A stretch of 64,000 nucleotides of DNA from Cornus controversa. Taxonomy: Eukaryota; Streptophyta; Magnoliopsida; Cornales; Cornaceae. The stretch lies in assembly GCA_026545225.1 (NCBI GenBank), contig CM048845.1:91204533-91268532 (forward strand). The letters are read 5' to 3'. Shown here piece by piece: positions 16,328 to 62,915 of this stretch (position 1 is the stretch's first letter; every line of letters begins with the position of its first letter). The notes under the pieces were generated by a model. That model was not told the origin of the DNA. It was given only the letters and a program-made list of their open reading frames with translations, and made no database searches. Position numbers and translations under genes: made by a program.

Positions 16328-19085
16328 TCATTCTATATCACTGTCGTCATCAACAGATAACAATTCATCATCACAATCTTCCTCATCATCACAATAATCG
16401 ATCAATGTATCATCTTCGTGCTCGCTCATATCATCATTAATGAAATCTTCATCTACATGATCGCCTGTTGCATTTTCAGTCTGAAGAATAGCTGTATCAA
16501 CATATGATGGGTCAACATCTTCCCTATGCAATGGTTCAAAATCTCTGTCATCATATTGGACGGTTGCATCAACATTTCCTGAATCTTCGACTTCATATAA
16601 ATTAGCATCTGTATCTACACTTTCATTAACTAATGTCATCTCCTCAATGTGATACAAACTCCTAGGCTCCACCTTTTGTACAACATGCCACTGACCACCA
16701 TACTTTATATCTTTCATATAAAACACTTGCTTAGCTTGGTATGCTAACACATAAGGATCGTTGTTGTACCACTTCTTTGCAAAATTTACACTTGTGATGT
16801 GCTCATCAGAATGTATTCCTGTTCTTGAACCAACATCCCACCAATCGCACTTGAAGATATATACATTATTTTCTCCTAAATATTGTAACTCTATAATATC
16901 TAATAGAACACCATAGAAGTCAATTTCTTTAGAATTATGTTCTCCTTTCACAATAACTCCACTATTTTGTGTACTACGGTACTTGTCACGATCAGATGTG
17001 TGAAACCTAATCCCATTGATGATACATCCCGAATATCGGGCAACCATTTGAGCAGGACCACAAGCTAAACAGTAGAGTTGCTCGGTAGCTTCTGGCGCTT
17101 TATGTTCGTACAATCTTTTCATCTATGGATCACATGAATTTTTTTTAGTGAGATTATAAACAATAAATTTATAAAAAATTACTGAACCTTGTCTAAAAAC
17201 TTACACGCTTCTCAAACCATCGAGGAAATTGTTGTTCGTGTTGTGCATCAGTCAAGCCCCGACTCTTGACAATCTCTATGTGTTCACTTCACAGAAAGTA
17301 TGTAAAATTATAAGCTTGAACTACACTAACTAATATATAATTAAATACACAAAATAAAAAAATTTATTACATGTATTACTCACTTAACATAAGGCAGCAC
17401 TTCATCACAATTGTTCAATACATACATATGAGCCTTATCAAGATTAGCCAGTGGCATATCAAAATAGGTCGGGGCTCCCAAAGTACGTACATCTTGAATG
17501 AAAACATAAAGGCCTGACCTTTATTTCCTCGACTGCCATCGTAATTCCGTTCATCTCGATTAAACACTGTCTCAACCCCTTTGAGATACATCGAACAAAA
17601 AGTTAGGCATTCTCTATCAATATATGCCTCAGCAATCGATCCCTCTGGTTTGGCTTTATTTCGAACTGTTGTCTTTAAAGAATGTAAGAACCTATTAAAA
17701 TTTTATTTAAGTGAATAATAGATAAATAATATTAATATAAGGCTTCTAACAATGATTATAAAATATTGAGTAGCATATCACCTTTCAATTGGATACATCC
17801 AGCGATATGGCACAGGTCCAGCAAGGATGGCCTCACGAGGAAGGTGAATTGCTAAGTGGACCATTACGTCAAAAAAGGCAGGGGGGAATATCCGCTCCAG
17901 CTTGCATAATATAATGACAATGTCTTTTTCCATTTGCTCTAACTCATCCAACTGTAATGTCCTTGAACACAATTTCTTGAAAAAGAAACTAAGCTCAGTT
18001 AACGTGGTACATACATCCTTGCGAAGGTGGCCACGTAATGCTACTGGGAGTAAATGTTGCAAAAGAACATGACAATCATGACTTTTCATTCCATTTGGAA
18101 CTAGATGTAATTCTTTCTTGACACCCATTTTCATCAAATCCATACGAGCCTTGACAGTGTCCTTTGTTTTTCCATCTATATCCAACAACGTTCCAATAAC
18201 ATTATCGCATATGTTCTTCTCAATGTGCATGACATCTAGATTATGTCGTAATTTAAGCATATGCCAATAAGGCAATTTAAACAAAATGCTCCTCTTTGTC
18301 CAATTGAGCTCATAGTCTTGACGCTTTCTCTTTAGGCTATTTGGTCCCTTACCAAACCTCGTGTCAGGAATTTTATTTAATTGCTCCAGTAAATCATTGC
18401 CAGATAATTCATTAGGTTTCTGCCTAAGCTCCTGTGATCCATCAAATGCTTGCTTATTTCTTCGCCAATTATGATCATCCGGTAAAAATCGACGATGACA
18501 CTGGTAACAAAGTTTCCTTCTATGTTCCAACCAATATGAAGAAATCTCCTTATTACAGCTTGGACATGCCAATTTTCCTTTAGTCATCCACCCAGACATA
18601 ATCGCATATGCAGGGAAGTCATTTATCGTCCACAACAATGCAGCATGCAATTGGAAATTTTGTTTTTTCGAAGCATCGAATGTATCTACACCATGTTCCC
18701 ATAGCTCTTTCAGCTCGTCAATCAGTGGTTGCAAGTACACATCAATGTCCTTACCAGGTGACTTTGGTCCAGGTATGAGCAATGACATCATGAAAAAAGG
18801 CTCTTTCATACATTTCCAAGGTGGTAAATTGTAAGCCATTAGAATTATAGGCCACGTGCTATAAGAGGTGGACATGTTTCCAAATGGATTGAACCCATCA
18901 GTTGCTAATGCAAGGCGGATATTTCGAGGATCTTTAGCAAACCAATCATGTTGCTTATCAAAATCCTTCCAGGTTTCAGAATCTGCTGGATGTCTCAATA
19001 CCCCATCATCAACCCTCTTTTCTTTATGCCAAGACATATCGGCAGCTGTCTTTCTAGACATAAATGACAAAAATGTTTTCAACAA
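16328..19085 (-). pseudogene. TNP2-type CACTA transposase, N-terminally truncated
   Basis: The main block (19085-17778) shows the TNP2 domain: LATDGFNPFG with a likely catalytic Asp, PGPKSPGKDIDVYLQPL, a Cys-rich CPSCNKE...CYQCHRRF stretch, and LDVMHIEKNICDNVIGTLL. A DUF4218-like end follows (SHDCHVLLQHLLPVALRG ... PYRWMYPIER). After a short GT-AG intron, an exon continues at about 17695-17390 (VRNKAKPEGSIAEAYI ... VFIQDVRTLGAP). It needs a change of frame near 17500-17520. A DUF4216-like block lies at 17122-16328 (IFKCDWWD) and ends in a long Asp/Glu-rich tail. Relatives have about 150-200 more N-terminal residues; upstream of about 19100 only garbled remnants remain. The apparent start at 19085 is TTG, not ATG, and is not a real start. 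The element is probably immobile on its own. Confidence 0.8.
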
Positions 19086-21350: not shown

Positions 21351-24300
21351 ATCTCCCACTTGAAGACTGGAGAACTAATGAATCTTCATCATCAACTCTC
21401 TCTGTGCAACACAATGCACTTCAGTGTGCTTATCTTCTGTCTTCAAGCTGGAAGACCTACTGAAGCTACGCAAAGCTTCAGTTTCTCCATCGTCATTGCT
21501 TTGGTTAATATGTTAGCAGGATTTTTGGTGCCAAGTATCTTCTCAAGTAACAACACTCCATTTTCTAACAGCGAGCGAATGAAGTGATATCGAAATCCTA
21601 TTTGCTTGGTCCTTAAATGAAATGCAAAATTCTTCGCCAAGTGTATCTCACTCTAACTGTCACTGTGCAAATCATTCTTCACCTGCTTGAATCCTAACTC
21701 TACCAACATATCTTGTAACCAAATCATCTCTTTACTGGCCTCTGTGACTGCTATGTACTCTGCCTTTATTGTGAACAACGCTACAATCTTTTGTAACTGT
21801 GAAACCCAACTGACTACAATAGTACTAACTTTGAACACATACCCGATCATACTCCGTAAGTGATCAACTTCTCCGACAAAATCAGCATCTACAAAACCAT
21901 GTAGTTGCACGTCGCTTCTGTCAATGCATATGAATTTTTCTGTGGTACCACTAGATATTACAATATCCACTTCACTGCTTCCCAATGTAGTTTTCCTGGA
22001 TCACTCATGAACCTACTCACAGCTCCCACTGCATAAGCAATGTTAGGTCTCGTGCACACCATGTCATACATTAAACTTTCAATGGCTGAAGCATACGGAA
22101 CTTTAGCCATGAAGTTATTTTCTTAATTTGTCCTCGGACACTGATCCTTGGATAAGCAAAAATGGCTTGCTAAGGGTGGCTCACTGGCTTAGCGTTGTTC
22201 ATGTTGAATCTCTTCAAGATACGTTCAACATAGTTGGCCTGAGAAAATTGGAAATTACCTTTCTATTTGTCCCTTATAATCCTTATCCCAAGTATCTGAT
22301 TCGCGGCACCAATATCATTCATTTCGAACTCAATCGATAACTACTTCTTTAACTTGTCGATTTCTTTAAAATCAGAACCTGCTACTAACATGTCATTAAC
22401 ATAAAGTAGCAGTATGATGTAACTCGCATCAAACCTTTTGAAGTAACAACAATGGTTAGTGTTGCATTTGTTGTAGCCACGTCTCTGCATAAAACTGTCA
22501 AATTTCTTGTACCACTACTTCAGGGCTTATTTCAAGCTATACAATAAGCTGTACAAACTCTTTATCAACTTGCACACAAGTTTTTCTTTTCATTTGACTG
22601 AGAAACTCTCTAGTTGTGCATGTAAATCTCCTCATCTAGGTCTCAATGAAGGAAATCAGTTTTCACATCTAATTGCTTAAGATGCAAATCTTTAGACGCA
22701 ACAATGCTCAAAACTGAACGAATGGTATTCAGTTTTACAATCGGAGAAAAGATGTTAGTGTAGTCAATCCCTTCCTTCTGTTGAAAGCCTTTGACCACCT
22801 ATCTAGGCTTTCTTTACAATAGGTAATTTGACTAGCTTCCATGTACAATTAGAGATAAGGGACTTCATCTCATCTCTCATCGCTAGCTCCCACTTGCTCG
22901 AGTCCTCTACTTAACATGCTTCATCGTAGCATTCGGGTTCTCCACCATCTGCCAGCAACAGAAAATTCATGTACTTCCGATTTGGTACACGTGGACTCTC
23001 ATGTACTCATAGCTCATGAAAGTTCATGTATTCATAGTTAAGCTCTGTGGTGCTCGCTGTTTTATAAGCTCTTCAAGCTGAGGACTCTCACCAACCTGCT
23101 GTGCCACACTTCTTACTGGATCGTTATCTAACTCGACGTACTCTGAATTTTCTTGTACCAGTCTAGTAGGTTATGTAATACCTCTATTTTTTCATTAAAA
23201 ATCATGTCTCTACTACGAATGATCTTCTTATTTTGGTAATCCCAAAGTCGATAACCAAACTCATCTCCTCCATATCCAATGAACTTTAGTGACTTGGGCA
23301 GTTTTTCCCTAACATAGTCACTAATATGCGCATAAGCAATACAACCAAACACTTTTAGCTATAAAAGATTTACCTCCTTGTCGTTCCAGACTTCTTCTGG
23401 TATTTGGTGCTCTAACGGCACTGAAGGTCCTCGATTAATAAGGTAGACTATTGTATTGACTGCCTCGACCCAAAATTGCTTGGGTAGACCTGACTGAATG
23501 TGCATACTTCTAGCTCTTTCTGTCAACGTTCGGTTCAATTGTTCTGCCACTCCGTTTTGCTGTGGGGTTCCTTTTACAATCCGTTCCAAACAAATCTTAT
23601 TATCAAAACAAAATTTCTTGAACCCAGTGTTTTCACACTCACCACCGTTGTTTGACATCAACCTTTTGATCTTCAAGTCCATCTCATTCTCTACCATAGC
23701 CTTCCATTTTTTAAACACCCCCAAATACCTCAGATTTGTGCGTAAAAAAATATACCCATACCTTTCGTCTATGATCATTGATGAAAGTCACAAACTAAGA
23801 CTTTTCACCAATAGATAAGACCGGGGCTGGCCCCCAGACATCTGTGTGAATTAACTCAAGCTTCTCACTCTTGAGAATTCTTTCACTCTTCTTAAAACTA
23901 ACCTTCTTCTGTTTGCCGCACACACAATTATCACAGAAGTCGATATCAATCGATTTTAGCCCTAATAGTTTTCCTAACTAGTGCATGACTTTGAGCCCTT
24001 TTTCACTAATGTGACCTAATCTCTGGTGCCATAGGTTGCGATATTCTTTGCTTTCAATAATCGCTATTGCTACTTTAGCACTGACAGTTGTGTAGAGAGA
24101 GTCATTCTTCTTACCACGTACTATGATCATAGCGCCTTTGAAGACTTTCCACAAATCCCCAATGAAGTTTATAACATAACCTTTATCTGATAATTGACCA
24201 ACAGAAATCAAATTCTTCCTCAAATCTAGGATGTGTCTCACATCCTTCAGCTTCCAAACAGATCCAGTCAGCTTGATTTGTACATCACCATTGCCGACTA

Positions 24301-25055
24301 CGTCGTATGGCTGATCATCACTAAGATACACCTTACTTCTGCCTCTACTTTCGACGTTCAACGCCGAACCACTGGTAGAAACGCAATATGATTGCCTTCT
24401 GATTTCTTCAGTCATAATCATGTTTACAACGTCATCGAACTCCAACTTTGATTTTCTTGGAGAATTATTGATTGTAGTAACTGTGTCACTCCAACTCTCG
24501 AGTAACTGTCCTAGAATTAGAAGTGCGCGGACCTTATCTTTGAAGTCGATTTTAACAGATTCTAATTGTCCAACGATCTCGTTGAACACATTGAGATGCT
24601 CGTTGAATCTTTCACCTTCAGACATCTTTAAGTTAAACAACTTCTTTATAAAATATACTTTATTCATTGCAGACGGCTATTCGTACATATCAGAAAGGAC
24701 TTCCATGAAAGATGTAGTTATTTTCTCATTTTTGATGTTGAAGGCGACCGATTTTGATAACGTCAATCTGATCGTTGCAAGAGCATTCCGATCAAACTTG
24801 ATCCATTCATCTTCTTTCATCCCTGCTGGCTTCTTTTCAAGTGGTAGATCTAGATCTTTCTGGATCAGATAGTCTTCTCTATCTACATTTTTCAGAAACT
24901 AAAGTTTGTGCCATCAAACTTCTCAATCCTTGATGCTCTATCTCCTAACGCCATACTCCCACTCAAATAGATAAATCTGTAGTGATAAACTTCGCCAAAA
25001 TTTCGTCAATCACTTATTGTGCCCTTGATATGCAATCCAAGACTTTGATACCAGT

Positions 25056-34848: not shown

Positions 34849-35427
34849 CTAAGTCGAAGAAGAAGAAGAGGCGACGCCGCCGTCGGCCAACAAGCCACCG
34901 GTTCCGGCGGCTTCTTCGTCCAAGAACAAGTCGTCAGTCTTCCTCAGAGCGGCGTGAACAGCCACAACCACCACTCCAATCAACAGCGACACCAGAATGT
35001 TGACCGTCGCGTCAGTCAAGAAGAGGAAAACGAGCGTGAGAACCGATAGCACGATCAGCACCACCCGATCGTCGATCATGTGGTGGAAAACCACCAGAGG
35101 CTCGTCCCGGAGGAAGTAGAGGAACAGCCAAATGGCCATCATGACGATGAACACGATCAGCGAGATCGGGTGCCAGAGAAGGCTGAGGAAGATGATCAAG
35201 AGGACGACCATGGCGTAGTTCATCCGGAAGTAGGCGACGTTCGTTCTGATCCTTCCGATTGCGTCGTTGAAGCTCGCCGGAAGGTTGACTGACCGGAAGT
35301 TCAACATCTCTTTCCACGGCCGTCGATCTCCGAGGCCAGCTCTCATCTGTTCCTTCGCACGGGCAAGGTACTCCAGGTTTGGACCACCCGTAGGAGATGA
35401 CGTCGGAATCGTCCCATATGTCGTCAT
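34849..35427 (-). CDS. PRA1F: PRA1 family protein, PRA1.F type (prenylated Rab acceptor)
   Basis: Intronless gene for a 192-aa protein. PRA1 proteins are small multi-pass membrane proteins of the endoplasmic reticulum, Golgi and endosomes that bind prenylated Rab GTPases and assist vesicle traffic. The N-terminus [11 protein letters not shown] and the C-terminal [12 protein letters not shown] are typical of the plant F subgroup. The PRA1 domain covers about residues 30-165. It has the signature [20 protein letters not shown] (about 69-88), YFLRDEPL (about 104-111) and [15 protein letters not shown] (about 119-133), giving two hydrophobic hairpins. The Ser-rich end is cytosolic in known members. 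The chosen ATG at 35427 starts the conserved motif directly. The coding sequence is clearly GC-richer than its surroundings, so long shadow frames appear in the other frames. The subfamily is from memory. Confidence 0.92.
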
Positions 35428-45191: not shown

Positions 45192-45196
45192 CACAT

Positions 45197-46344
45197 TGTG
45201 GATAAGTACATTACAGAGCAAGGAAAGAAGGAATGGGACAGAAAGAAGGAATGGGACAGGAAGCCTCATATATACATAGACCTCACGCGGAGGCATTCTC
45301 CCCGCGTATGGGATAATCCCGCGGGGGCCACGCACCCGCGTGGTTAACCCATGCGCGGGCAACATCCCCCCGCGCAGGGTCAACCCATTCCCGCGGAGGG
45401 ATGATCCTCTTCCCGCGTAGGGGTATTTACATAAAAGGAATCCTCAATCCCCATGGGGGGTTAGCAAAGCATACAGAAGCACAGGGAGTGAGAAGATTGG
45501 GGGCAATCCTCTCTGACGGGCATGTTATGTTTGGTAATTAGATTGTGTTTTCTAGGACCAACTCTGAAAGGAGTATGATTCTATGAAACACTTCTAAATT
45601 AATAAATATGGCATACTCTCAGGGTTACAAGGAACCATGGATGAATGGACCATTGTGTGGCTTAACCAGCTCACAATCCCGAGTGGTTATCCTTGTAACA
45701 GGGGCTATGTAGAGGACTATTAATTCCTTTCTTCAATATGGAAAGTAACTTGTCGCGACGTTACTTCTAGCATTGAGGAGTGGGAATTAGTATGAGGCTA
45801 CGGTGTCCCACAGACCATTTTAGGCACAGATACAGGCTGTGATATGGTCTGGGCGATCATGGTGTTATAATGAAGCATATGGCGTCATGGTCCCAGGCGG
45901 GAAGGTGGGTTGAGTGTGGTATGGAGGATTGAGAGGAAGGCTCGTTGGGCCATGGGTATCTAAAAGTTGCGCTAGTGTGACTCTACACGGGCACCATCAC
46001 AACATTTCTCGCGGGTATGACCAAACCCGCGAGGGGTATAGACTCATGGTTACAACCGGGAGTGGTAAAGGAAGGGATACGCGGCCAAGTGCCACGTAGG
46101 ATGACAGCTGTCATAAGCCCCATGCCTGAGGTCTATAAATACCCCATGGCATGGTGACATGTGGATCATCCTGGTGCCCCCTCCCTCTCTGAATCACTCT
46201 TGCTTTCTCTCTCTCCCATCTAGCACCCAGCTCACATTCCTATTATTGTTTCCTGGTTATTTCATCAGCTTGATCCTATTCAGTTCTTACAACTCAGTCC
46301 TGTGATAGTCATTCCTCATAGCAGAACTCTTCTACCTATTTACA
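45197..46344 (+). repeat. Gypsy 5' LTR
   Basis: Starts TGTGGATAAG and ends CTATTTACA. A GC-rich block at 45280-45430 carries repeated CCCGCG-type words. A 'ctataaatacccc' TATA-like motif lies at about 46132-46145, suiting a promoter about 200 bp before the LTR end. Confidence 0.95.
46132..46141 (+). promoter_or_regulatory. Candidate TATA box of the gypsy 5' LTR
   Basis: 'ctataaatac' in the 3' third of the LTR; the identical motif is in the other LTR near 57348. Assignment is by motif and position only. Confidence 0.5.
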
Positions 46345-46378
46345 ATTGGCGACTCCACTGGGGAGGATTGCCTTTCAC

Positions 46379-48565
46379 ATGGCTGGTCAGCAGAATGTTA
46401 AGCGGAAAGGGAAGCAAGCTGCACCAAGTTCTCAGAGAGCTGATCAAAATCCAGAGCCGGCCAATCCTGTCAATTCAGGTGTTCCTCAACAAAGGCGTAA
46501 AGTACAAAGAAGGCAGAATCCACCAATCAATGTGGCTCCTCCACAATCTCAAGATAATATCCCCCCAATGATGCTCCAAGTACTAGCAAACATCCAAGAA
46601 ACTCAAGTGCAGATCCTACAGTTTTTGCGAACTCAGCAGTCTAGTCCCAGAACAGAGCGATCACCTGTTCCCGGTCGAGGACAATCACCTCAGATAATAG
46701 GTCCGGATGTGACAGAAAATCCTGGCCGAAAGGAATCTGACAATGATAACCAGCACAATGTTAATGCCTCGTTCGTGACCATTGAGCAATTGCAAGCAAT
46801 TCTTAATTCCAAAAAGAATACAACTGTTGATATTGAGGTCCCACCGCCTTATGATCCCACCATATTATTAATGCCATATCCGGAGGGATATTTTTCTCCA
46901 AAATTCAGACAGTTTGACTGTAGGGAAGGAGATGCAAGGGAGCATATCGCGCGATTTGTGGACGCGTTAGGTGCCTACAGAAATGATGAACAGCTTAAGC
47001 TCAGGGAATTCTCAAAATCCCTTACAGGAAGAGCTAACACCTGGTACATGAATTTAGTGCCAGGAACAGTGTTAACTTGGGCAGAAATGCTGGCTAAATT
47101 CTACGAAAAATTCTTCACCACTGAGGAGCGAGTCACAATGCTGTCGTTAACTCGGCACAAGCAAAAGTTGGGCGAAGAGGTAGTCACATATGTCAAACGT
47201 TTCCGCGAGATGTCATTGGAATGTTTCGAGCCAACCTCAGAAGAGCAACTGATAAAAATATGTGTGGATGGTTTGTTGAGAGAGTATCGGGTGCATTTGG
47301 TTAATCATGAGATAAAGACCTTCTCTGCCCTAATGAATAGCGCTAGACGCCTGGGAGAAATTATTCCACCACCGGCAAAGGGAAATGTCTTCCCGCGAAG
47401 GGCCACTGTGGCAGCAACTCCGAGTCAGATAAGCAGCAATACAGGGAGAATACGACGGTCGGAACCCGCACCTTTGCCATTTGGTATTAAGGAGGCAATA
47501 TCATTATTAACTCAGTGGATCAAGGATGGTGTTGTCACCTTACCCGCGGTAGAAAGACTTCCTAGCAGAGAAGAAAAGGCAAAGTCGAACTACTGCCCCT
47601 TTCACCGAGCTGTGCGACATTGTCTAACTGATTGCTGGGCATTCAGGGGAATAGTACATAAAAAGATCGCTGAAAAGAGCATAGATATTGCTGGAAACAA
47701 TGTTGTCAACAATCCATTCCCCCAGCATGTAGCAACTGTTGGTGTAACTGATCCAATGGATGAAGGAGAATACCAAGTTATGAATACGGATACAAATGCT
47801 CACATACATTGTTTCTTCAATGATCTGTCAATCCCAGAACAGATTAAGGAATTTTTAATAAATCAAACCGTGGCAACACTGATTCACACTCGCAATGAAC
47901 CATCTAAACAAGATGTGACCAAGCAAGGAGAGATTGTCTTTTCAATGGCAGATAAGCAAGTCCCTTTCCCTCACAATCGACCGCTGTATGTACCAGTTAC
48001 AGTCAATGGTCGAGATTTGAAACGAGCTTTTCTTGATAGCGGGGCTTCAGTAAATATCATGCCATTGACCACTTTGAAGGCAATACAATTCCCGGAGGTG
48101 AAAATCGTTCACCAACCTATAAACGTTACAGCTTTCAATGGTGAACAACAAGCTACAATCGGATATGCAACGGTCGATCTAAAAGTAGGGAAAATCAGAG
48201 CCCCTACCAAGTTTCATGTCATAAAAGGTGAACCATCTTATCAGTTGTTGTTAGGCAGACCCTGGATGCATGCGTACGGGGTTGTCCCATCCTCTTATCA
48301 TCAAGTTATGAAGGCTAATTGGGGAAAGGGCACTATGACGCTCCGAGCTTCTAAAGATCCTTTTTGTCCTTCGGAGGCTCATTTTGCCGATGCAATTTTC
48401 TTTAATGAATATACGGATGAAATGGCCAATGAGGAGGTTCAGGCTATTCCGCTTCCCAAATGGGAGGATCTACAAGTAAGAGTATCTCCTAAGAGGCCCG
48501 CAGAGAAGGAAGTAAACTGGACTAAAGTAAAAATGGCGGATGGAAGGGTTGTATACAAGTTATGA
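46379..48565 (+). other. Gypsy gag and aspartic protease region
   Basis: Part of the gypsy element. The gag core (retrotransposon gag domain, about 46900-47350) includes the family words 'REHIARFVDALGAY' and 'KSLTGRANTWYMNLVPGT'. The retropepsin-like motif FLDSGASVNIMP lies near 48030, followed by LLLGRPWMH near 48250. The conserved start is probably the ATG at 46379, just downstream of the primer site. Confidence 0.9.
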
Positions 48566-48733
48566 CGGGGCGCGGGGACCGGACTCCCACCTGAAGTTCG
48601 TGTCCCCAATGTTGCCGAGGTTCTCATATATGAGGATGCCATAAGACTTTCAGAGGAAAATGATGCAAGTTTTCTGATAGAGGAAGAGCTGGAAGAAATA
48701 GATATCGGAGATAGGGTCTCTCCGCGGCCCACA

Positions 48734-51034
48734 TTGATCAACAAGAAACTTGATTCAAACTTAAAAATGGCCATTATACAGTTGTTGAAAGAGTACCAGG
48801 ATGTGTTTGCATGGGCATATGATCAGATGCCCGGACTTGACCCTAACTTAGTTGCTCACCAGCTTAACATAAATCCTTCCGCGGTGCCTGTCAAGCAGAA
48901 ACAGAGGGCTTATCGTCCGGATTTGGAGATACGAATCAAAGAAGAAATCCAGAAGCTACTCAAAGCAGGGTTCATAAAACCCACTCAGCATCCCACATGG
49001 CTTGCTAACATTGTGCCTGTACAAAAGAAAAACGGCCAGATTCGGATATGCGTTGATTATAGAGATCTCAACAAGGCTTGTCCAAAAGATGAATTTCCGC
49101 TTCCAAATATTGACACAATGGTAGATGCCACGGCAGGTCACGAGTTATTTTCATTAATGGATGGATTCAGTGGATATAATAAAATAAAGATGGCCCCCGA
49201 AGATGCGGAGAAAACAGCCTTCCGAACACCAATTGGAAATTTTCATTACACAGTCATGCCCTTCGGACTAAAGAATGCAGGCGCTACTTACCAACGGGCT
49301 ATGACAGCAATTTTTCATGACATGATCCACCATGAAGTAGAAGATTATGTGGATGATCTAGTGGTGAAATCAAAGAAATGCATAGAGCACATACGAGATT
49401 TAGATAAAGTTCTCCATAGATGCCGTGAATATAACCTAAAGATGAACCCGATGAAATGTGCCTTCAGTGTCCAACAAGGAAAATTTTTGGGATGTATAGT
49501 CCACAGGCAGGGTATTGATTTAGATCCCAGCAAGGCTAAAGCAATAATCGAAATGGATTCGCCGCGGACAAGAAAATTATTACGGGGTTTCATGGGGAAA
49601 GTATCATACTTAAGGCGTTTTATCCCAGCACTGGCAGAGGTTACTCATCCTTTAATCCCGTTAATGAAGGATAAAATCCCTTATGTATGGAATGCCGAGC
49701 ATCAGGCTGCATTCGAGAAGGTAAAGGGAATCCTGACATCACCACAGACAATGACGGCTCCGACACCTGGAAAAGGATTGATCATGTACTTAACTTCTAC
49801 TGAGAAATCTATCGGTGCTTTGTTGGCCCAGGAGCATGAGCAAATGGAAAAACCTGTGTACTATATTAGTAGAGTACTTCGAGGAGCAGAGGTGCGTTAT
49901 ACACCGATAGAAAGACACTGTTTATCTCTGGTCTTCGCAGCACAGAAATTCAGGCACTATCTGTTGGCACATCCAGTTGAATTGATCACAAAGAGCGACC
50001 CCGTCAGATATTTGTTGTCAAAACCACTATTGTCAGGAAAATTGGCTCGTTGGTTGCTCGCCCTATCCAAATATCAGATTATATGTTCAAACCCCAAAGC
50101 AGTAAAAAGTCAAGCTCTCGCTGATTTATTGGCTATGTTCCCGCGGGGGGAGTCTGAACCGGAAAGCATCTTTGATGTTTCAATTGGTGATGAAATTTCA
50201 TCAGAAGAAACAGATCCCTGGAAATTGGAATTTGATGGATCCTCCACAGAAAGAGGAAATGGCGCTGGTTTCATAATGACCAATGAAAAGACAAAAGAGG
50301 AAATTGCTATGTCATACAGACTAGACTTCCCTTGTACTAATAACATGGCCGAATATGAGGCGTTGATACTAGGTCTGTCTGCAAGCTTGGCAGCAGGAAT
50401 ACAGAAAATGGTGGTCTACGGTGATTCTAACTTGATAATCAAGCAAATCAGAGGAGAATACTCGGTAAAAGAGCCTCGCCTTGCCACCTATCGGGATATT
50501 GTGCAAGAAATGATGAAAAACTTTCAATACATAAAATTCGAGCACAAACCCCGAGCAAGTAACAGGCGATCTGATGCATTGGCTACTTTGGGGTCTCAAT
50601 TGGAATTAAGAGAAAATATGACAATGGTCAATCTTCTTCGTCGAACTCAGCCCGCGACAATATTTTATGATCACCCAGAAGAGGAAGAAAGTGATTGGAG
50701 GAAGACAGTTATAGAAAAACTCAAACAGTTGGGTGGGGTTAAAGATATGGCATTAGAAAAACAGTACCAACTGGTTGCTAATAGACTCTATCATCGCGGG
50801 CCAGACGGGGTATTGTCAAGATGTCTCGGGCCCAAAGAGGCTGAAAAAATATTGACAGAAGTACACAAGTCTTCTTGTGAAACGACAGATATTAGCCTGT
50901 ACCGAAGATTACAAAGACAAGGGTACTTCTGGCCGACAATGAAAGAAGAGGCAGTAAAAGTACAAGAAGCATGTTCAGGCTGTTGCTGTCTTACTGCGCA
51001 CACTGAAACAAATTTTGTTGAGATCTCAGACTAG
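48734..51034 (+). other. Gypsy reverse transcriptase and RNase H region
   Basis: Part of the gypsy element. Reverse transcriptase shows the words 'RICVDYRDLNKACPKDEFPL' and YVDDLVVKS (near 49350). A first RNase H domain follows (about 49750-50100). A second RNase H-like segment (about 50220-50600, 'LEFDGSS' and 'NNMAEYEALILGL') is a known feature of the Tat lineage. Confidence 0.92.
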
Positions 51035-51046
51035 AGAGGCCAATAT

Positions 51047-52249
51047 GTGGAATACTTGCGAAAACAAACTCTACCTAGAGACAAAAAGGAGGCTTTTCGT
51101 CTACAAAGGAGAGCGAAGAGATTTTTTGAGGAAAATGGGGTATTATACCGGAAAGGGTTTAATGGTCGACCTTTGAGATGTTTGAAAGAAGAAGAAGCCC
51201 GGGAAGTCCTAAAACAAACGCATGATATGGGACATCAAGGAGGACACAAACTCTTCCACCAATTGGTCACGGCGGGATATTATTGGCCTACCATGGAAAA
51301 AGATGCTTTGGATTATACGAAAAGGTGTCATATTTGCCAAGTTCACGGGTCTATGATAAATGCCCCCGCGGCAAGCTTGCACAGCTTGATAACTCCATGG
51401 CCGTTTCACACTTGGGCGTTGGATATTATTGGACCAATTACACCAGCATCACGGGGGCACATATGGCTTCTAGTGGCTACAGAATTATTCTCAAAATGGG
51501 TAGAGGCTTCTCCATTAAAAAAGATTGCGGCGGTTAATGTGGTTAGATTCATAAAGGAAAACATTATTTGCCGATTTGGAATACCAAAGGTATTACTTTC
51601 GGACAATGGTACACCATTTGTTAACTCAACAGTTAGAGAATTATTGGGCAACTATATGGTGTCCCATCACAGATCAACGCCTTACTATCCAAAGGGGAAT
51701 GGACAAGCCGAGGCCAGTAATAAAACACTCATTCGGATTCTAAGTCGTTTGGTTCACGAAAAGCAAAAAGAATGGGTCGAACAGCTACCAATCGCATTAT
51801 GGGCATATAGAATTACTCGGAAAAATTCCACAGGAGAAACACCCTACGCGTTGGTATATGGCGCAGAAGCAGTGCTTCCCGCGGAGCTTCAAATTGAGGC
51901 AATAAGATTGGTAGGGAGGAGCGCAGATACTCAGAGACTAAGCCAATTAGAAGCCCTGGATGAAAAGAGGGAAAATGCCCAAAACCATCACAAGGCTTAT
52001 TTGGCAAGTCAGTCACGACATTATAACAAGAAGATACACCCGCGAGAATTTAAAGTCGGAGAGTTAGTGCTCAAGGTGGTACCTGCAATCATGAGGGGGC
52101 AAGGGGTTCGGAAATTTCAACCAAAATGGGAAGGACCTTTTGAAGTAAAGGAAGCGAATGAAAGTGGTTATTACAAGCTTGAAGAATTGGGAACCAACTT
52201 TAAGACAGGGCCTATAAATGTCAAATGGATAAAGAAATATTTAGCATAG
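51047..52249 (+). other. Gypsy integrase region
   Basis: Part of the gypsy element. A zinc-binding HHCC segment is visible (GHQGGHKLFHQL then CHICQVHG, about 51230-51345). The catalytic core follows ('WALDIIGPITPAS' and 'LLSDNGTPFVN'). A C-terminal KVVPAIMRGQG and 'FQPKWEGPFEV' segment is present, with no obvious chromodomain, as in Tat elements. Confidence 0.92.
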
Positions 52250-52359
52250 AAATATTTGTTACTTGTACTACAAAAGAGTTCAATAATAAGAATAAAAGGT
52301 GCAGTTACAAAATACTAGCAAAATACAGTTCAAAAAACATGAGTCATCAAAAGAAAAAA

Positions 52360-55300
52360 TTACAGAAGATCTTTGAATATTAGATCTGAGGGAACGACAC
52401 CAAAGGATGCCACTTTCCTCGAAATGGTAGCTGCAAGATCTGCTGCTTTTGCTTTATTCACAGCAATACGATCCTCTAAAAGCACCAGGTGTTGACGTGT
52501 AACATCAGCCTCAGCCACATCCTTTGCAAGTTCAGCAGCCAAGGAAGCTTGTTGATCATTCAGGACTTGTATTTCATAACTGTGAACAATGTCTTGCAAA
52601 CGAGAATCTAGCCAAGGGAGTGATAAGCCAACAGCCCGCCAATCACTAATACGTCTCCGAAGACTTGGGATTGTCACAGGATCAATACTGGACAATGGCT
52701 GATCATCAAGGGAGATAAGAAAGTCAGCCACAGCATCTAAAAAGAAACGCTAATACAAAGGATCTTGAAAAGCAAAATTGGCAAAGGTCTCAGGATAACG
52801 GCGGTAGATCCTATTAAGCATCCCCACATTACGAAAGCTACAGGAGAAGGAGCGCCATTCGACAGGGTCATCAGGCTTTAAATTCTGAGGATTCAGAAAT
52901 ACTTCGAGATCTGAACGCAGACCTTCACTAAAAACGGAATCGGAATCCACAGCGGAAGTCTGAGGATCATACTCTACGAGATAGGAGGGAGAACGTCAGA
53001 AAAATTGGATGAAATTGGACGAAAGTATATATATTAAGGAAATTATATAAAATATAGCGAATACCTGGCCTGGGGGAAGACTTGTCGGTAGTAACAACAT
53101 TATCAATATCAGGAATCTGAGCCGCGGGAACAGGGCGGGATAAAGCAGGGGGGTGACTAGCTTCACCCGCGGGAGGAATATCATCGGTATCCTTTAAAAT
53201 CTGAAGGTCATCACCAGGACTCCCGAAAATGTCTCTTGATAGTTGGGCAGTATCCTTGTTCGTTGCCGCCAATTCTCCAGCAAGGTCGGAAACATTATCC
53301 GCAGGTGCAGATGGATCTCCAGCTCCAAGTTTAGTCATCATGAGATTCACTAATGGATCTTGACTGACAGAAGGCTCAACCTCTTCCGCGGGCTCACTTT
53401 CTTGCGAAAACACTAAGTGGCCGGCATCATGCCTTATACGAGCAAGGTCATCTTCGGGTGAATTTAAGGAAGAAGATAAAACAATAGCAGGAGAGGGGAT
53501 TACAGGAATCGGGGATGAAGGTCGTTGGCTAGATTGAGGGTGAGAGTCTTGCAAGATTGTGGGTTTATGAAGGGATAACAAGGCAGAAATAGGGATGCGA
53601 TCCTCCTCATCGACAGAGGCAGTAGTCACAGATTTAGGAGGCAAAGGTGGAGAGGGGTCTACGGGCAAGTCAGGAGCAACAGAGGGATAACCCTCCGCGG
53701 CAGAACCCAAGTCAGAGTCATTCTCCTCGGTATCAGGTTGGGCAAATAATCCACCCGCGGAGGATCCTTCCGCATGGGTGGCTTGTTCAAAGGCTGCATC
53801 AAGCCTCCCGGGCCCTATTGGAAGGAAATGGGGAGGATCACTGCCCGAAATAGAAGCCTCTTTATAGGCAACAGGTTTCCGCGGACGGAGAGCCTGGGCA
53901 AATGAAACAAAAGAAAATATGTTTATGAGGACAGGAAAGGAAAATTTTTTAAGAGCCGAAACAGGTAGAAATCTTACCATACGGATTTTCTTGTTTTCAG
54001 GCTCGTAGTCTGCTACAGAAGAAACATCCGCATCAACAATTGGAACTCCTCGGGTTAATCGCTTTCCGCGGAAAGGTTCTTTTATGCACTGACTCAAAGG
54101 ACCACGCGATTCATGATCCTGGGGGCATTTGAGAGTAATATCGTCTTTGAATACTTTAACAGTTTCTGGTATTACAGGAGGACTCTCAACGAAATCTTTG
54201 AATAAAGTATGCATGTGCTCTAAGTATCGGAGATAGCTGGACGAACAATGACCCCTCCTGTGGACTGAGGGTATTTCAACATATGAAGAGAAGCGACGTT
54301 TCTGCAACTCACATTTTTTCCGATAAAAAAGAATGGAATCATCAAAGGTTTCGCCCCATAAAAAATTTAAGGTAGGAATGTTCTGATCAAAGCCAAATTG
54401 TCGAGCCACCTTCATAGGATAATAGCCCATCCTCTTTAGGCGAAATTCACTCACCGCGGGTAGAGCTGCGCCAGTTACCATGGCGCAAAACATCAGCTCT
54501 TGCAAACTGGGCTTTGTGTCTTCCAGCAGGATGGTGTCTTCAGAATAAAATTTTGGGAATTGGATACCATCGTACTGAATGGTATAAGGTCGAAACTCAA
54601 AAAATTCTTCGCAATCCAAAGAATCACCAATGTCCCCAATGTGACCTAGGCCATTCCATCTCATAGCATGACAATTATCGATGATAAGACCATTACTATC
54701 AAAAGGTTCAAAAACATGGGGAATACCCGCGTACCGCGGGAAGCGCTCAAAAAGGAATAACATGAGGAAAAGGCAGGATACATAAGTGCTAATTTCATAA
54801 CGGCCTTTCGAACGGTGATAATCTACTGCAATAGTATCCAAACGATTGTAAAGAGTACCGAGGAACATAGGGGCTAAAGGTAGGCTCTCACCTTTTGCTA
54901 AAGTAGCCGCAAGAAGGAATGAATCTCTATCAGGGCCATCTTGAGGACGACCTTCGAAAATAAAACGGTCCAACCAGTATACAAGGAAAGCGGCGAGCTC
55001 ATGAGCCTTACCAAATTCGGGACCTTCCACAAATTGGCGGACACGCTGATTGTCACGAATCTCTTTAGTCTTTTTCTCATAATCTCTGAAGAAGTAACGA
55101 TACCAAGCAGTGTATGAGAGTTTAGGGGACTTCATTTTGGGGCGAGTCTTGAGTTTTTTGGAACCTCTAAAAATAGAGTCTAATCGCATGGCCTCGTCTG
55201 CAAAGGTATTCAAGGCATCGCGAATGGTGAGAGCATCCGGTGAAGCAATAGGATCGGCCACCTCTCCCGAACATAAAATAGGTAGCCTAAAAAGTACGGC

Positions 55301-55804
55301 TACATCTTCTAAAGTGGGAGTAAACTCACCCCAAACAGTAGCAAAAGTGTGACTGGTAGTACTCCACCTTGAGATCACAGCGGTAAGTCCATCAGCATCC
55401 CTTTTCACAGATAATTCAGAAAAGAGCTTAACAGATTGAAGGATTTTTGCTTTCTGGAGAACGGCACAATAATCTGGGACCCCAAGGATATAGTGTGACC
55501 ATTCAGTCCATTCTACCGTCGTACCCATATGAGACTCGTACTCAGTAAAACTGAAGGGATAATCTCCTCTTTCTAACCGGAGTCGTGGAATGGATTCGGG
55601 GACAATTGCAAAGGCCTCTATACTGTCGTCCAAGCCAAGGGTTAAAATATCATCGGACACTTCCATATCAGGAACGAACTCTTCCATGGAACTCCAAAAA
55701 TGATCGTGCTTTACTTCGAAAAAAGGTGCCTTACGCCATTCGGAAGAAGGAGGAACAGGGGGAACGGTCCCATTGGCCATGGTCATTTGTTTCTTTTTTG
55801 TCAT
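52360..55804 (-). other. Antisense plant mobile domain (PMD, PF10536-like) gene carried by the gypsy element
   Basis: This lies between integrase and 3' LTR on the opposite strand to gag-pol. The long N-terminal part (about 55804-54000) has the plant mobile domain signature: 'AVISRWSTTSHTFATVWGE' directly followed by FTPTLEDVAVLFRLP. The domain is known from host proteins such as MAIN and MAIL1 and from several transposon types. The middle (about 53900-53050) is acidic, Pro/Ser-rich and probably disordered. The end (about 52950-52370) is helical. It reads as several consecutive segments, probably exons. It may act in silencing evasion or expression control of the element; this is inference. 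The leading coding part looks well kept, in line with the element's youth. Confidence 0.8.
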
Positions 55805-56412
55805 AATGAGCTAAGTCAAGTGTCAGAAGTAAGGAAGGAGGGACAAAGAGAGCAGAGAAAACAGAGTAAATGATAAGGGAGTACAGATGAAAGGTGTAAA
55901 CAGTGGGTTATATAAGCACCGGGCGCGGAAACCGAAACGACGCGGACGGTTACAAAGGAACCGAAGAGACACTGAAGCCAGTCGCAAATGGTACCTCACC
56001 CGCGTAGGGATTTCTAGCTCTAAATTACGCGGACGAAGTAAAAAAGGACTTTTTACATTAAGGGAGGAAGCATTGCATCTGTAAAAATTCTCCGAGGCAT
56101 TTAATCAAACAGGAAGTAGGCGTGAAAGAAGGCATTACAGCAAAGGGAAGGGATATGAGTCAGAAACAAGCAAAGAGAGAATGAAGGAAAAAAAAAAGCA
56201 CCAAATAAAGGAGTTATCAAGGCCACGAAAAAAGGAAGAAAATACAGCCAAGTTACAAATAAGCAGGGGAATCGCAAAGACAGAAAGCAGTGATCAAAGA
56301 GGAAAGGGCTCCGTCGAGCAAAGAGTGGACAAAACAACTATGAAAGTAGGCACAGAAAGAAAAGGTTACAAACAAAACTTCAGGAAGAAATATTATTTGC
56401 AAGGGGGCATAA
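55805..56412. other. Gypsy 3' non-coding segment and polypurine tract
   Basis: An upstream leader of the antisense gene, then A/G-rich DNA, ending in a polypurine-tract candidate 'tgcaagggggcataa' immediately before the 3' LTR. Confidence 0.7.
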
Positions 56413-57560
56413 TGTGGATAAGTACATTACAGAGCAAGGAAAGAAGGAATGGGACAGAAAGAAGGAATGGGACAGGAAGCCTCATATATACATAGACCTC
56501 ACGCGGAGGCATTCTCCCCGCGTATGGGATAATCCCGCGGGGGCCACGCACCCGCGTGGTTAACCCATGCGCGGGCAACATCCCCCCGCGCAGGGTCAAC
56601 CCATTCCCGCGGAGGGATGATCCTCTTCCCGCGTAGGGGTATTTACATAAAAGGAATCCTCAATCCCCATGGGGGGTTAGCAAAGCATACAGAAGCACAG
56701 GGAGTGAGAAGATTGGGGGCAATCCTCTCTGACGGGCATGTTATGTTTGGTAATTAGATTGTGTTTTCTAGGACCAACTCTGAAAGGAGTATGATTCTAT
56801 GAAACACTTCTAAATTAATAAATATGGCATACTCTCAGGGTTACAAGGAACCATGGATGAATGGACCATTGTGTGGCTTAACCAGCTCACAATCCCGAGT
56901 GGTTATCCTTGTAACAGGGGCTATGTAGAGGACTATTAATTCCTTTCTTCAATATGGAAAGTAACTTGTCGCGACGTTACTTCTAGCATTGAGGAGTGGG
57001 AATTAGTATGAGGCTACGGTGTCCCACAGACCATTTTAGGCACAGATACAGGCTGTGATATGGTCTGGGCGATCATGGTGTTATAATGAAGCATATGGCG
57101 TCATGGTCCCAGGCGGGAAGGTGGGTTGAGTGTGGTATGGAGGATTGAGAGGAAGGCTCGTTGGGCCATGGGTATCTAAAAGTTGCGCTAGTGTGACTCT
57201 ACACGGGCACCATCACAACATTTCTCGCGGGTATGACCAAACCCGCGAGGGGTATAGACTCATGGTTACAACCGGGAGTGGTAAAGGAAGGGATACGCGG
57301 CCAAGTGCCACGTAGGATGACAGCTGTCATAAGCCCCATGCCTGAGGTCTATAAATACCCCATGGCATGGTGACATGTGGATCATCCTGGTGCCCCCTCC
57401 CTCTCTGAATCACTCTTGCTTTCTCTCTCTCCCATCTAGCACCCAGCTCACATTCCTATTATTGTTTCCTGGTTATTTCATCAGCTTGATCCTATTCAGT
57501 TCTTACAACTCAGTCCTGTGATAGTCATTCCTCATAGCAGAACTCTTCTACCTATTTACA
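56413..57560 (+). repeat. Gypsy 3' LTR
   Basis: Same length as, and by eye identical to, 45197-46344. Followed by the CACAT target duplication. Confidence 0.95.
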
Positions 57561-57800
57561 CACATTTACCATCATTGAGATTCTAAATAGTTTCTACCCA
57601 TGTTATTTATACATCAGACTCATTGTACACAAATATTTTTCATCACTCCCTTTACATATTTGCCCAAACTAACAAATCAAAACTCTTACTCTTGTCTAAC
57701 CAAACACCACTACAATCAAAAAATAATTATACACACTAATTCAAAAAATCCATCACCCACTAGAACATTGTATCATACTATAATACTATTATTTTAAAAA

Positions 57801-60032: not shown

Positions 60033-62915
60033 ATGGAGGGAAAGCACCAGTTTTTCCATGGAACACTTGAAGCTACCATCTTCCATGCCACACCTTGCAA
60101 CACACCATTCCCCTTCAGTGTAAGTTACAAATGAGTTTATATACAGCACTCAGATTGAAATAGGTATTGTCTCGTTTTGTTAAACTTGATTAGAATGCTA
60201 TTAAGCTGTTAATACATAAAATTACAATTCCTTTATATAATAAAGTTTTGTTGTCCCAAACAGTAGAAAATCTGATTAACTGGAACTCTATTTTTGCAGT
60301 GTATATTTGGGAATGGAAAGCCAGCCTATGTGACCATCAAGATAGACCAAAAGAAGGTAGCAACAACAAGCCATGAGAGTGACCGTGTTTGGAACCAAAC
60401 CTTTCAAATCCTTTGTGCTCATCCATCCAACTCAACCATAACCATTACAATGAAGACAAAGTGCTCAATCTTGGGGAAAATCCAAATCCAAGCCAATCAG
60501 ATACTGAATGAATTGAGTTTGATCAATGGATTCTTCCCACTCAACATGGAAAATGGAAAGTCAAACCCCGAACTCAAACTACGATTCATGTTATGGTTTA
60601 AACCAGCAGAATTTGAACCAAGCTGGGGAAAATTACTTGAGCTTGGAGAATTCCAGGGGCTAAAGAATGCTACATTTCCACTAAGGTCTAATTGCAGCAT
60701 CACGCTATATCAAGATGCTCACCATCTCACTTCCTTTCAACCACCATCTCATCTCTGTGGGAGCCCAAGAAAGTTATGGGAGGATGTGTATAAAGCACTT
60801 GAGGGTGCCAAGCATTTGATTTACATTGCAGGGTGGTCTTTCAATCCTAAGATGGTGCTGGTAAAAACAACACCACCACACTATGTCTAAGCTAATGTTA
60901 TCGGACAAGGATCCTCTCCAGCCAAACCAAATCTCCCTCTTGAATTCCGCAGACTTCAATTTGTGGTCCAGATTCAGCCAAGTCATCATCTTATTCAACT
61001 TTATCACTTACAATTTCAGTTCTAGCATAAATTTCATCATTGAGTTTAACAAGACAATGACGTGACTGAATCTGAACCACAAAATTGAAATTTGCGAAGT
61101 TTAGGAGAGAGATTTGACTGAAGAAGATCCATTTCCTCACTATGCCCTTTTTGTATTCAAAGTCTGATTTGCTTTTTGCAGGTTCGCAATCCTCAAACTG
61201 ACATTCCACACGCATGTGGAGTAAAGCTTGGTGAATTGTTGAAGAAGAAGGCAGAGGAAGGTGTAGCTGTGAGGGTCATGATTTGGGATGACGAGACTTC
61301 CTTGCCAATTATCAAGAATAAAGGAGTGATGAGAACTCATGATGAAGATGCCTTCGCATACTTCAAGCACACCAAGGTAGTATGCAGATTGTGCCCCCGG
61401 TTTCACCACAAGTTCCCCACGGTCTTCACCCATCATCAAAAAACCGTAACTGTTGACACGCGAGGACGCTTCTCTTCAAGCAATCGAGAGATCATGAGTT
61501 TTGTTGGTGGATTAGACCTCTGTGATGGCCGGTATGACACAGAGCAGCATTCATTGTTTCACACCCTCAATACAGAATCCCATTGTAATGATTTCTATCA
61601 GACAAACATTTCTGGAGCTAGTCTTCAAAAAGGTGGGCCGAGAGAGCCATGGCATGATTCTCATGCCTGTATTATTGGTGAAGCTGCTAGGGATGTTCTG
61701 ACCAATTTCGAGCAAAGGTGGACAAAGCAATGTGACCCTTCTCTGCTCGTCCCCGTTAGCACCATAGCAGATCTCTGCCACCACCCTACTCCTACAAGCA
61801 TTTCCACTGAAAGGGATTGGAAAGTTCAAGTCTTTCGATCAATTGACCATGTGTCTGCAACCCAATTGTCAAACAGCTTTACTGTTGAGAGAAGCGTCCA
61901 AGAAGCTTATGTAGAGGCAATTCGTCGTGCTGAGAGGTTCATATATATAGAGAACCAATACTTCATTGGAGGATGCCATTTGTGGGAGAAAGATCAGCAT
62001 TGTGGCTGCAGAAACTTGATCCCTATTGAGATTGCACTCAAGGTAGCAAGCAAAATCAAAGCAAAAGAGAGATTTGCAGTGTATATTCTAATACCAATGT
62101 GGCCAGAAGGAGTACCAGAAAGCGAACCAGTCCAAGATATATTGCATTGGACAAGAGAAACAATGAAGATGATGTACAGGTTGATTGGAGATGCAATACA
62201 AGAAAGTGGCGAACCGGGACACCCAAGAGACTACTTGAACTTCTTCTGCCTCGCTAACAGGGAAGTAGAGGGCAAAGGAGAATTCATTCCTCCATATTCT
62301 CCTCACCCTGCAACAGAGTACTGGAATGCTCAAAAACATAGGAGGTTCATGATTTATGTACATTCCAAGCTCATGATAGGTATGATCTCTATTCTTCTTC
62401 ACTTGTCCATTAATCCATGACAATGAAGTTTATGTACTAACTATAGCTTTGTTTGTGATTTGCTACTTGTTTCTTCAGTGGATGACACCTACATGTTGAT
62501 AGGATCAGCGAATGTGAACCAGCGATCCATGGATGGGCAACGCGACACAGAAATTGCAATAGGATGCTACGAATTAAGAAATGGTGAACAAAAAGGAGTG
62601 AGTGATGGGGATATTCAAGCATACCGTATGTCAGTGTGGTACGAGCATAGTGGACGAGCAGAGGAGCTGCTCCGAGAACCTGAGAGCTTGGAATGTGTGC
62701 AGATGATCCGTTCCATAGGAGAGCAGATGTGGGAAGTGTATTGTGGAGAGGAAATAGTAGACATGGAAGGTGTTCATCTGGTCACATACCCTGTGAGAAT
62801 AGGCAATGATGGTTGTGTTGATGATCTTAAGGACAGTGATGGCCACTTTCCAGACACTAAAACTCCAGTGAAGGGAAAGAAATCAAAATTTCTACCTCCT
62901 ATATTCACCACATAA
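60033..62915 (+). CDS. PLDALPHA4: Phospholipase D alpha 4 / epsilon type, full length, 4 exons
   Basis: The enzyme hydrolyses membrane phospholipids to phosphatidic acid and a free head group. Exons 60033-60119, 60300-60860, 61182-62379 and 62479-62915 join in frame to 760 aa; Arabidopsis PLD epsilon is about 762 aa. The N-terminal C2 domain (about 1-140, MEGKHQFFHGTLEATIF) is the calcium/lipid-binding module. The first catalytic HxKxxxxD is HQKTVTVD (301-308). The second, HSKLMIVD (610-617), spans the exon 3/4 junction. FIYIENQYF lies between them, and FVGGLDLCDGRYD after the first motif. The C-terminus 'FPDTKTPVKGKKSKFLPP' matches the alpha4/epsilon subtype as I remember it. In Arabidopsis this isoform is plasma-membrane bound and linked to nitrogen signalling. 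Intron 2 carries a MITE. All key residues are present. Confidence 0.95.
60898..61143. mobile_element. Foldback MITE in intron 2 of PLD alpha4
   Basis: The left arm (about 60898-60995: 'ggatcctctccag', 'caaatctccctct', 'ttgtggtccagattcag') pairs with the right arm read inward ('ggatcttcttcag', 'caaatctctctcct', 'ttgtggttcagattcag'). Arms are about 95 bp with several mismatches. The element makes up most of the 321-bp intron and leaves both splice sites intact. No clear target duplication is seen. Confidence 0.75.

Follow-up and report, generated by a model that had tools for sequence, protein, structure and literature searches.

A very recent Ogre-type retrotransposon in Cornus controversa carries an antisense plant mobile domain gene swapped between relatives

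The DNA analyzed here, referred to as the window, is a stretch of 64,000 nt from contig C1 of the 771.7-Mb genome of Cornus controversa. Positions 45197-57560 are occupied by a 12,364-bp element, an Ogre-type Ty3/gypsy long terminal repeat (LTR) retrotransposon that inserted very recently and is of a kind already known. The strand opposite to gag and pol harbors a gene for a protein with a plant mobile domain (PMD). The features are listed below, where ORF is open reading frame and RT is reverse transcriptase; the antisense types A and B are described further on.

45192..45196, no strand: target site duplication CACAT, left (sequence)
45197..46344, + strand: 5' LTR, 1148/1148 identical to the 3' LTR
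45286..45417, again 56502-56633 in the 3' LTR, no strand: U3 array of eight CGCGG sites spaced 16-22 bp (motif count)
46347..46364, + strand: primer binding site, complementary to the 3' end of tRNA-Arg(ACG) (sequence and matching genome tRNA genes)
46379..48565, + strand: gag and protease ORF, 728 aa (ORF and domain matches)
48566..51034, + strand: first part of pol with RT, RNase H and a second RNase H (aRH), closing at the in-frame stop 51032 (ORF and domain matches)
51227..52249, + strand: second part of pol with integrase, same frame (ORF and domain matches)
52250..55940, no strand: exchanged segment with approximate limits, a type-B frame holding an antisense gene of type A (borders from 150-bp bins)
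52360..52973, - strand: antisense exon 3 up to the conserved stop, with an earlier in-frame stop in the window copy (copy comparison)
52974..53064, - strand: antisense intron 2, GT-AG, 91 bp, shifting the frame if retained (copy comparison)
53065..53893, - strand: antisense exon 2, Ser/Pro-rich linker (copy comparison)
53894..53977, - strand: antisense intron 1, GT-AG, 84 bp (copy comparison)
53978..55804, - strand: antisense exon 1, 609 codons, containing the PMD (PMD match and copy comparison)
55908..55914, - strand: antisense TATA box, 110 bp upstream of the ATG
56401..56408, + strand: polypurine tract (sequence)
56413..57560, + strand: 3' LTR (LTR alignment)
57561..57565, no strand: target site duplication CACAT, right (sequence)

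The LTRs begin with TG, end with CA, and align without a gap or a mismatch, and the 5-bp CACAT is read on either side of the element. At the frequently applied rate of 1.3e-8 per site and year, zero LTR differences mean that the insertion is at most about 0.1 million years old. The first-pass annotation had described a very young Tat/Ogre-like gypsy element with LTRs identical over 1148 bp and a perfect target duplication. All of this was borne out by exact alignment and by the domain order, with aRH between RNase H (RH) and integrase (INT); the LTRs do not have the divergence typical of old copies. A sister copy at C1:113.47 Mb has LTRs that differ from each other by 0 mismatches and 1 gap over 1155 aligned positions (flank included), and each differs from the window LTR at 12/1148 positions. 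The window copy is young yet not intact, containing a stop in pol and a stop in the last antisense exon; with the stop at 51032, a young copy has an interrupted pol.

The sense domains are arranged in the order gag, protease (PR), RT, RH, aRH and INT. A domain search placed RT_RNaseH at residues 335-436 and then RVT_3 (aRH) at residues 489-607, ahead of INT, which is a feature of Ogre/Retand-type elements of the Tat clade. The primer site sequence matches 11 places in the genome, 4 of them exactly, and 3/3 loci scanned are tRNA-Arg(ACG). Published work is cited here from excerpts of the papers. A tRNA-Arg primer site is also described for Ogre (PMC9289625), and PMD-bearing Ogre elements (Neumann et al. 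2019, PMC6317226) likewise have aRH between RH and INT, a PMD gene, and gag-PR and RT-INT ORFs; the PMD extra gene is common in Ogre without defining it. Ogre ORFs are parted by a region of 274 bp on average (PMC6317226), whereas the window element has a single in-frame stop. This stop, at 48563 between PR and RT, is found in 3/3 copies read, with both ORFs in the same frame and no long spacer between them. The stop at 51032 ahead of INT is confined to the window copy among these three, and many relatives in the scored list have a 1227-aa open frame around INT. Positions 51197-51497, inside INT, are 90.7% identical to a sister that is otherwise 97-100% identical (300-bp bin) and are perhaps a second mosaic segment.

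The antisense gene sits between pol and the 3' LTR and has three exons, two GT-AG introns and a TATA box. The large antisense PMD gene of the first-pass annotation is confirmed in part: in the 945-aa ORF at 52967-55804, residues 127-480 match Pfam PF10536 (PMD) with an E value of 1.8e-29. The same ORF was rejected as the product, because it is an unspliced reading in which intron 2 shifts the frame, and the window copy further has its stop in exon 3. The full product is predicted to have ~1,089 residues, with the PMD, the Ser/Pro-rich linker and a C-terminal domain. Intron 1 measures 84, 84, 79, 85, 83 and 83 bp in the window, L031, L034, L032, L038 and L039, the 6 of 8 copies in which both ends were located. 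Exon 3 differs from that of L032 at 35, 23 and 78 sites at codon positions 1, 2 and 3 of the spliced frame. A Pfam search of exons 2 and 3 of relatives gave no match. Transposase_28, common in Retand without defining it, was not found in the antisense ORF, for which the Pfam search gave the PMD only. A search of solved structures returned two matches (E 0.12 and 0.2) that were taken as chance.

Purifying selection acts on the antisense gene in the active lineage with about the same strictness as on gag-pol. The ratio of nonsynonymous to synonymous change (dN/dS) of the spliced gene is 0.17 (0.13-0.24) against L034 and 0.14 (0.11-0.17) against L032, compared with 0.11-0.17 for gag-PR, RT and INT of the same two copies, and reading exon 1 in its two wrong frames gives 1.16-1.53. 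The spliced gene contains 3 stops in L034 and 6 in L032, as in decayed insertions. Since the antisense protein is kept about as strictly as gag-pol, it serves the element.

The gene is also widespread among relatives. The places scored are the best candidates of genome-wide lists, and genome counts apply among the matches listed. Exon-1 PMD sequence occurs at no fewer than 73 such places (at least 73), of which 63 have a listed INT within 8 kb and 10 do not. In 63/63 of the pairs INT lies on the opposite strand, so the antisense position of the PMD is not due to chance. Other PMD families, represented by 33 matches hand-picked from the 143 PMD matches of the genome, behave alike, with 28 paired with INT, 28/28 on the opposite strand, and 5 unpaired. 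Exon 1 is at least partly present in 19/20 further copies fetched, with no match in L064. A lack of the antisense gene in related elements, raised beforehand as a point that would count against the annotation, was thus not observed. A close relative at C9:18.0 Mb (L086, L104) has lost the segment equivalent to 48108-52498, most of pol, and keeps antisense exon 1 at 99% with an open frame.

Relatives with similar gag-pol frames carry different antisense genes. In 42/63 pairs (hand count), INT is at least 90% identical to that of the window and exon 1 at most 77%. The copy at C2:18.9 Mb is 97.9% identical to the window over 5849 ungapped bp of gag-pol, with synonymous divergence (dS) of 0.021 in gag-PR, 0.099 in RT and 0.095 in INT. 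In its exon 1 the synonymous difference is 0.78, which is saturation, and the nonsynonymous divergence (dN) is 0.166. Types A-E were set by exon-1 distances before the INT tree was made; C4_39 was put in A (dS to A 0.64) and L054 in D (0.37) at the tree stage, and L101, L102, L103 and L105 were typed by exon-1 identity of 94-95%, not by tree. A fast mutation rate was rejected as the cause of saturation because within-type median exon-1 dS is only 0.02-0.30, and it does not exceed INT dS in A, B, D and E; in type C it is slightly above INT (0.02 vs 0.009; five types with several rows compared).

The trees contain 25 rows, namely 17/20 fetched copies, seven earlier copies and the window; L064 (no match), L058 (cut) and L063 (INT not fetched) were left out. 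On the exon-1 tree types A-E each form one clade with support of 100/100. On the INT tree C is a single clade and A, B, D and E are not (approximately unbiased (AU) test, p 0.016, 5e-9, 0.047 and 0.0016), and the type labels need 9 changes, compared with 4 on the exon-1 tree. INT is short, with few well-supported branches (4/22 starred).

The borders of the swap can be followed along the window copy. Similarity to type B is lost just downstream of INT and regained just upstream of the TATA box, and inside exon 3 the window returns to 90-92% type-B similarity. Both the stretch upstream of the gene and the LTR start (first 110 bp) can be aligned to 4/4 type-B copies (73-80% identity at the LTR start), compared with 0/5 other type-A, 0/2 type-C and 0/3 type-E copies, and type D aligns partly (63-79% over 47-122 positions). 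By exon 1 the C9:18.0 Mb copy is type A, and its arrangement is the same as that of the window copy. The antisense gene is swapped as a cassette between relatives, and the window copy, in which a type-B frame carries a type-A gene, is one of a young subfamily of recombinants. The 19 copies fetched have LTRs that match those of the window at 90.6-97% over the main alignment. A tracking of antisense type by LTR type was considered and rejected, since the window subfamily breaks the match. The most likely route of exchange would be template switching between co-packaged RNAs, because recombination between co-packaged transcripts, frequent during bursts, is described for ONSEN (PMC5668417).

The element is also rich in one short motif, CGCGG, which was noticed post hoc and not predicted. 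With both LTRs counted and palindromes merged, there are 49 CGCGG/CCGCG sites in the 12,364 bp. On the two strands together, each LTR has 13 CGCGG and the internal part 43, compared with 7 in the remaining 51,626 bp of the window. Among the 6-mers of the element, CCGCGG ranks first. The eight U3 sites are spaced by 16, 17, 17, 18, 16, 21 and 22 bp and occur in both orientations. Among internal CGCG 5-mers, CGCGG is counted 43 times, compared with 10 for CGCGA, 9 for CGCGT and 4 for CGCGC. Enrichment of a motif is not in itself a rarity, since enriched 6-mers are also present in other parts of the window (GAACCG). The excess in coding sequence was assessed by 300 shuffles that kept protein and codon usage. 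CCGCGG occurs 4 times in RT-RH-aRH (0.32 expected) and 6 times in antisense exon 2 (0.61 expected), with 0/300 shuffles as high in either case. Weaker segments are gag-PR, type-D exon 1 and type-E exon 1 (27, 71 and 21 of 300 shuffles as high), and type-B gag-PR has no CCGCGG site. The sites fall at partly different codons between types, with 2-7 listed positions per exon 1 and 1 in the outgroup. The CGCGG excess extends to relatives of types A-E and is absent from L065, L035 and L029. A second PMD element family has a different motif, similar to CTACGGATAAAC, with 7 copies in L029 and 6 in L026 within ~300 bp upstream of the antisense gene. This array, at L029:3714-4006 and L026:3631-3867, is perhaps in U3.

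Among 28 PMD rows of the Cornus genome in a protein tree, the window family groups with the second element family (L026, L029, L030), and the element PMDs are separated with support of 100/98 from PMDs clustered in tandem at 6.6-6.9 Mb on C8. L029 was entered twice, the tool warned of long-branch attraction, and the rows come from this genome only. The C8 cluster is presumed to consist of host PMD genes, because it is a tandem cluster with no listed INT nearby. The loci at C8:6.64-6.92 Mb (L001-L007) score 364-401 bits, and one open frame of 1262 aa contains two PMD matches. A comparison with host PMDs was proposed in the first-pass annotation; within this genome, it places the element clade apart from the presumed host cluster. 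Recent capture of a host PMD gene was rejected with reserve, given the separate clade and ~25% identity to the best-scoring PMD loci, the host set being the presumed C8 cluster only. The grouping, within the Cornus tree, agrees with the published Gypsy-only clades PMD-A1 and A2; the same source calls the ancestry of element and genic PMDs fully open (PMC5418596).

Taken as a whole, the results point to a recent Ogre-type insertion with a selected, intron-bearing antisense PMD gene that is exchanged between family members, with a probability of roughly 65%. Sense RNA would carry gag-PR and RT-RH-aRH-INT, and the accessory gene on the other strand would be transcribed from a TATA promoter of its own, located just internal to the 3' LTR, and lose two predicted introns. 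The antisense introns could outlive retrotransposition, because they would not be introns in the sense genomic RNA. Several anciently separated antisense versions would pass between family members, likely via template switching. We tentatively suggest, at clearly less than even odds, that the antisense protein acts in the nucleus as a regulator and maintains expression of the element in the face of host silencing. Several points weigh against this picture. Exon 2 is weakly constrained (dN/dS 0.43 and 0.28 against L034 and L032), and exon 1 has a dN/dS of 0.70, on few changes, against a 99%-identical sister. The intron-1 GT donor is lost in the decayed old copy L034, and the script did not locate both intron-1 ends in L040 and L041, in which open frames break near the same places. 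The window copy has its exon-3 stop 129 residues short of the conserved end in addition to its interrupted pol, and structure prediction of the antisense protein gave a mean predicted local distance difference test score (pLDDT) of 38.1. Antisense transcription and splicing are deduced from DNA features (introns, promoter and selection), the tie of the PMD protein to silencing is plausible by inference, and gene conversion between genomic copies could also give the mosaic.

It is only a little less than an even bet that the element is an ordinary young Ogre with the usual PMD gene, its mosaic being neutral family recombination and its motif excess functionless. PMD is reported in 57% of Ogre elements (PMC6317226), and the frequent recombination of ONSEN during bursts fits this explanation as well; however, neutral recombination fails to explain several mutually saturated antisense types that are each under purifying selection, or a motif excess that persists with protein and codon usage fixed. 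The promoter inside the 3' LTR faces pol, and control by double-stranded RNA from antisense transcripts has been discussed (PMC7264820), such that the antisense RNA itself might pair with genomic RNA and limit copy number via small RNAs, the protein being secondary. This seems improbable, as exons 1 to 3 evolve as a protein. The dense, regularly spaced array in U3, with sites in both orientations, could be an enhancer through which a host CGCG-box factor (CAMTA) acts, and be unrelated to the antisense protein. This is rather unlikely, given that pol and the antisense gene also contain CGCGG sites, in excess of the codon-usage expectation, and that CGCGG alone is high among the CGCG 5-mers. By analogy, the antisense PMD protein or a partner might read the element's own CGCGG sites in U3 and body and so keep it active; types A-E would be interchangeable since all serve the same motif, and the second family with its CTACGGATAAAC array would have another specificity. 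We regard such self-recognition as a long shot; if true, the element would have a retrotransposon equivalent of VANC, in which a PMD serves as the reader. VANC of VANDAL elements likewise has a short, dense, family-specific motif that is rare elsewhere, but VANC motifs are mainly non-coding, in one orientation and shown to be bound (PMC5735166), whereas the CGCGG sites are in both orientations, partly coding and known from sequence, and the likeness is one of analogy.

The first-pass annotation considered the element the best candidate in the window for an unusual system. The antisense PMD gene is real, but PMD extra genes are published as common in Ogre (PMC6317226, PMC5418596), and PMD is the most frequent non-canonical domain of Gypsy elements (PMC9289625). 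What merits further attention beyond the known Ogre kind is the exchange and the motif. The extra ORFs of Ogre were called as uninterrupted in PMC6317226, and the excerpt of that paper does not describe an intron-bearing, exchanged antisense gene. The Retand-lineage elements Grande, RIRE2 and Retand share an antisense gene between pol and the 3' LTR, and that of Grande has its own promoter, like the window gene, and a nuclear product; the typical antisense domain of this lineage is TRP28/Transposase_28, in contrast to the PMD of the window (PMC11963269, PMC7264820). The word "intron" was not found in a search of the text of PMC11963269 that was available. It is known that antisense genes can have a promoter of their own, and one review calls for a search for antisense and spliced transcripts (PMC7264820). 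MAIN and MAIL1 have the same Pfam domain but are host proteins, likened by domain alone (PMC5418596, PMC7156037), and an anti-silencing role of PMD has been voiced as speculation for Mutator-like (MULE) elements (PMC5418596). New ONSEN insertions are also mosaic between family members, but these belong to one small copia family (PMC5668417), whereas here a whole accessory gene of saturated divergence moves. A literature search over excerpts turned up no report of introns in antisense PMD genes, of antisense-gene exchange, or of a CGCGG array in such elements. Surveys that call only uninterrupted ORFs would misread such genes. Several anciently separated antisense types on close gag-pol frames constitute a natural swap experiment for expression, methylation and copy number, and the swap provides a handle on the role of PMD genes for Ogre elements. 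The antisense introns would offer a simple RNA-level readout of expression.

The remainder of the window contains, on the - strand, ABC transporter exons (4824-7892), CACTA-type transposon remains with Transposase_21 (tnp2), DUF4218 and DUF4216 (16328-19061), a copia-type gag fragment (23978-24667), and a PRA1 family gene (34849-35427). On the + strand, an ORF at 61278-62420 has a weak, below-cutoff phospholipase D motif.

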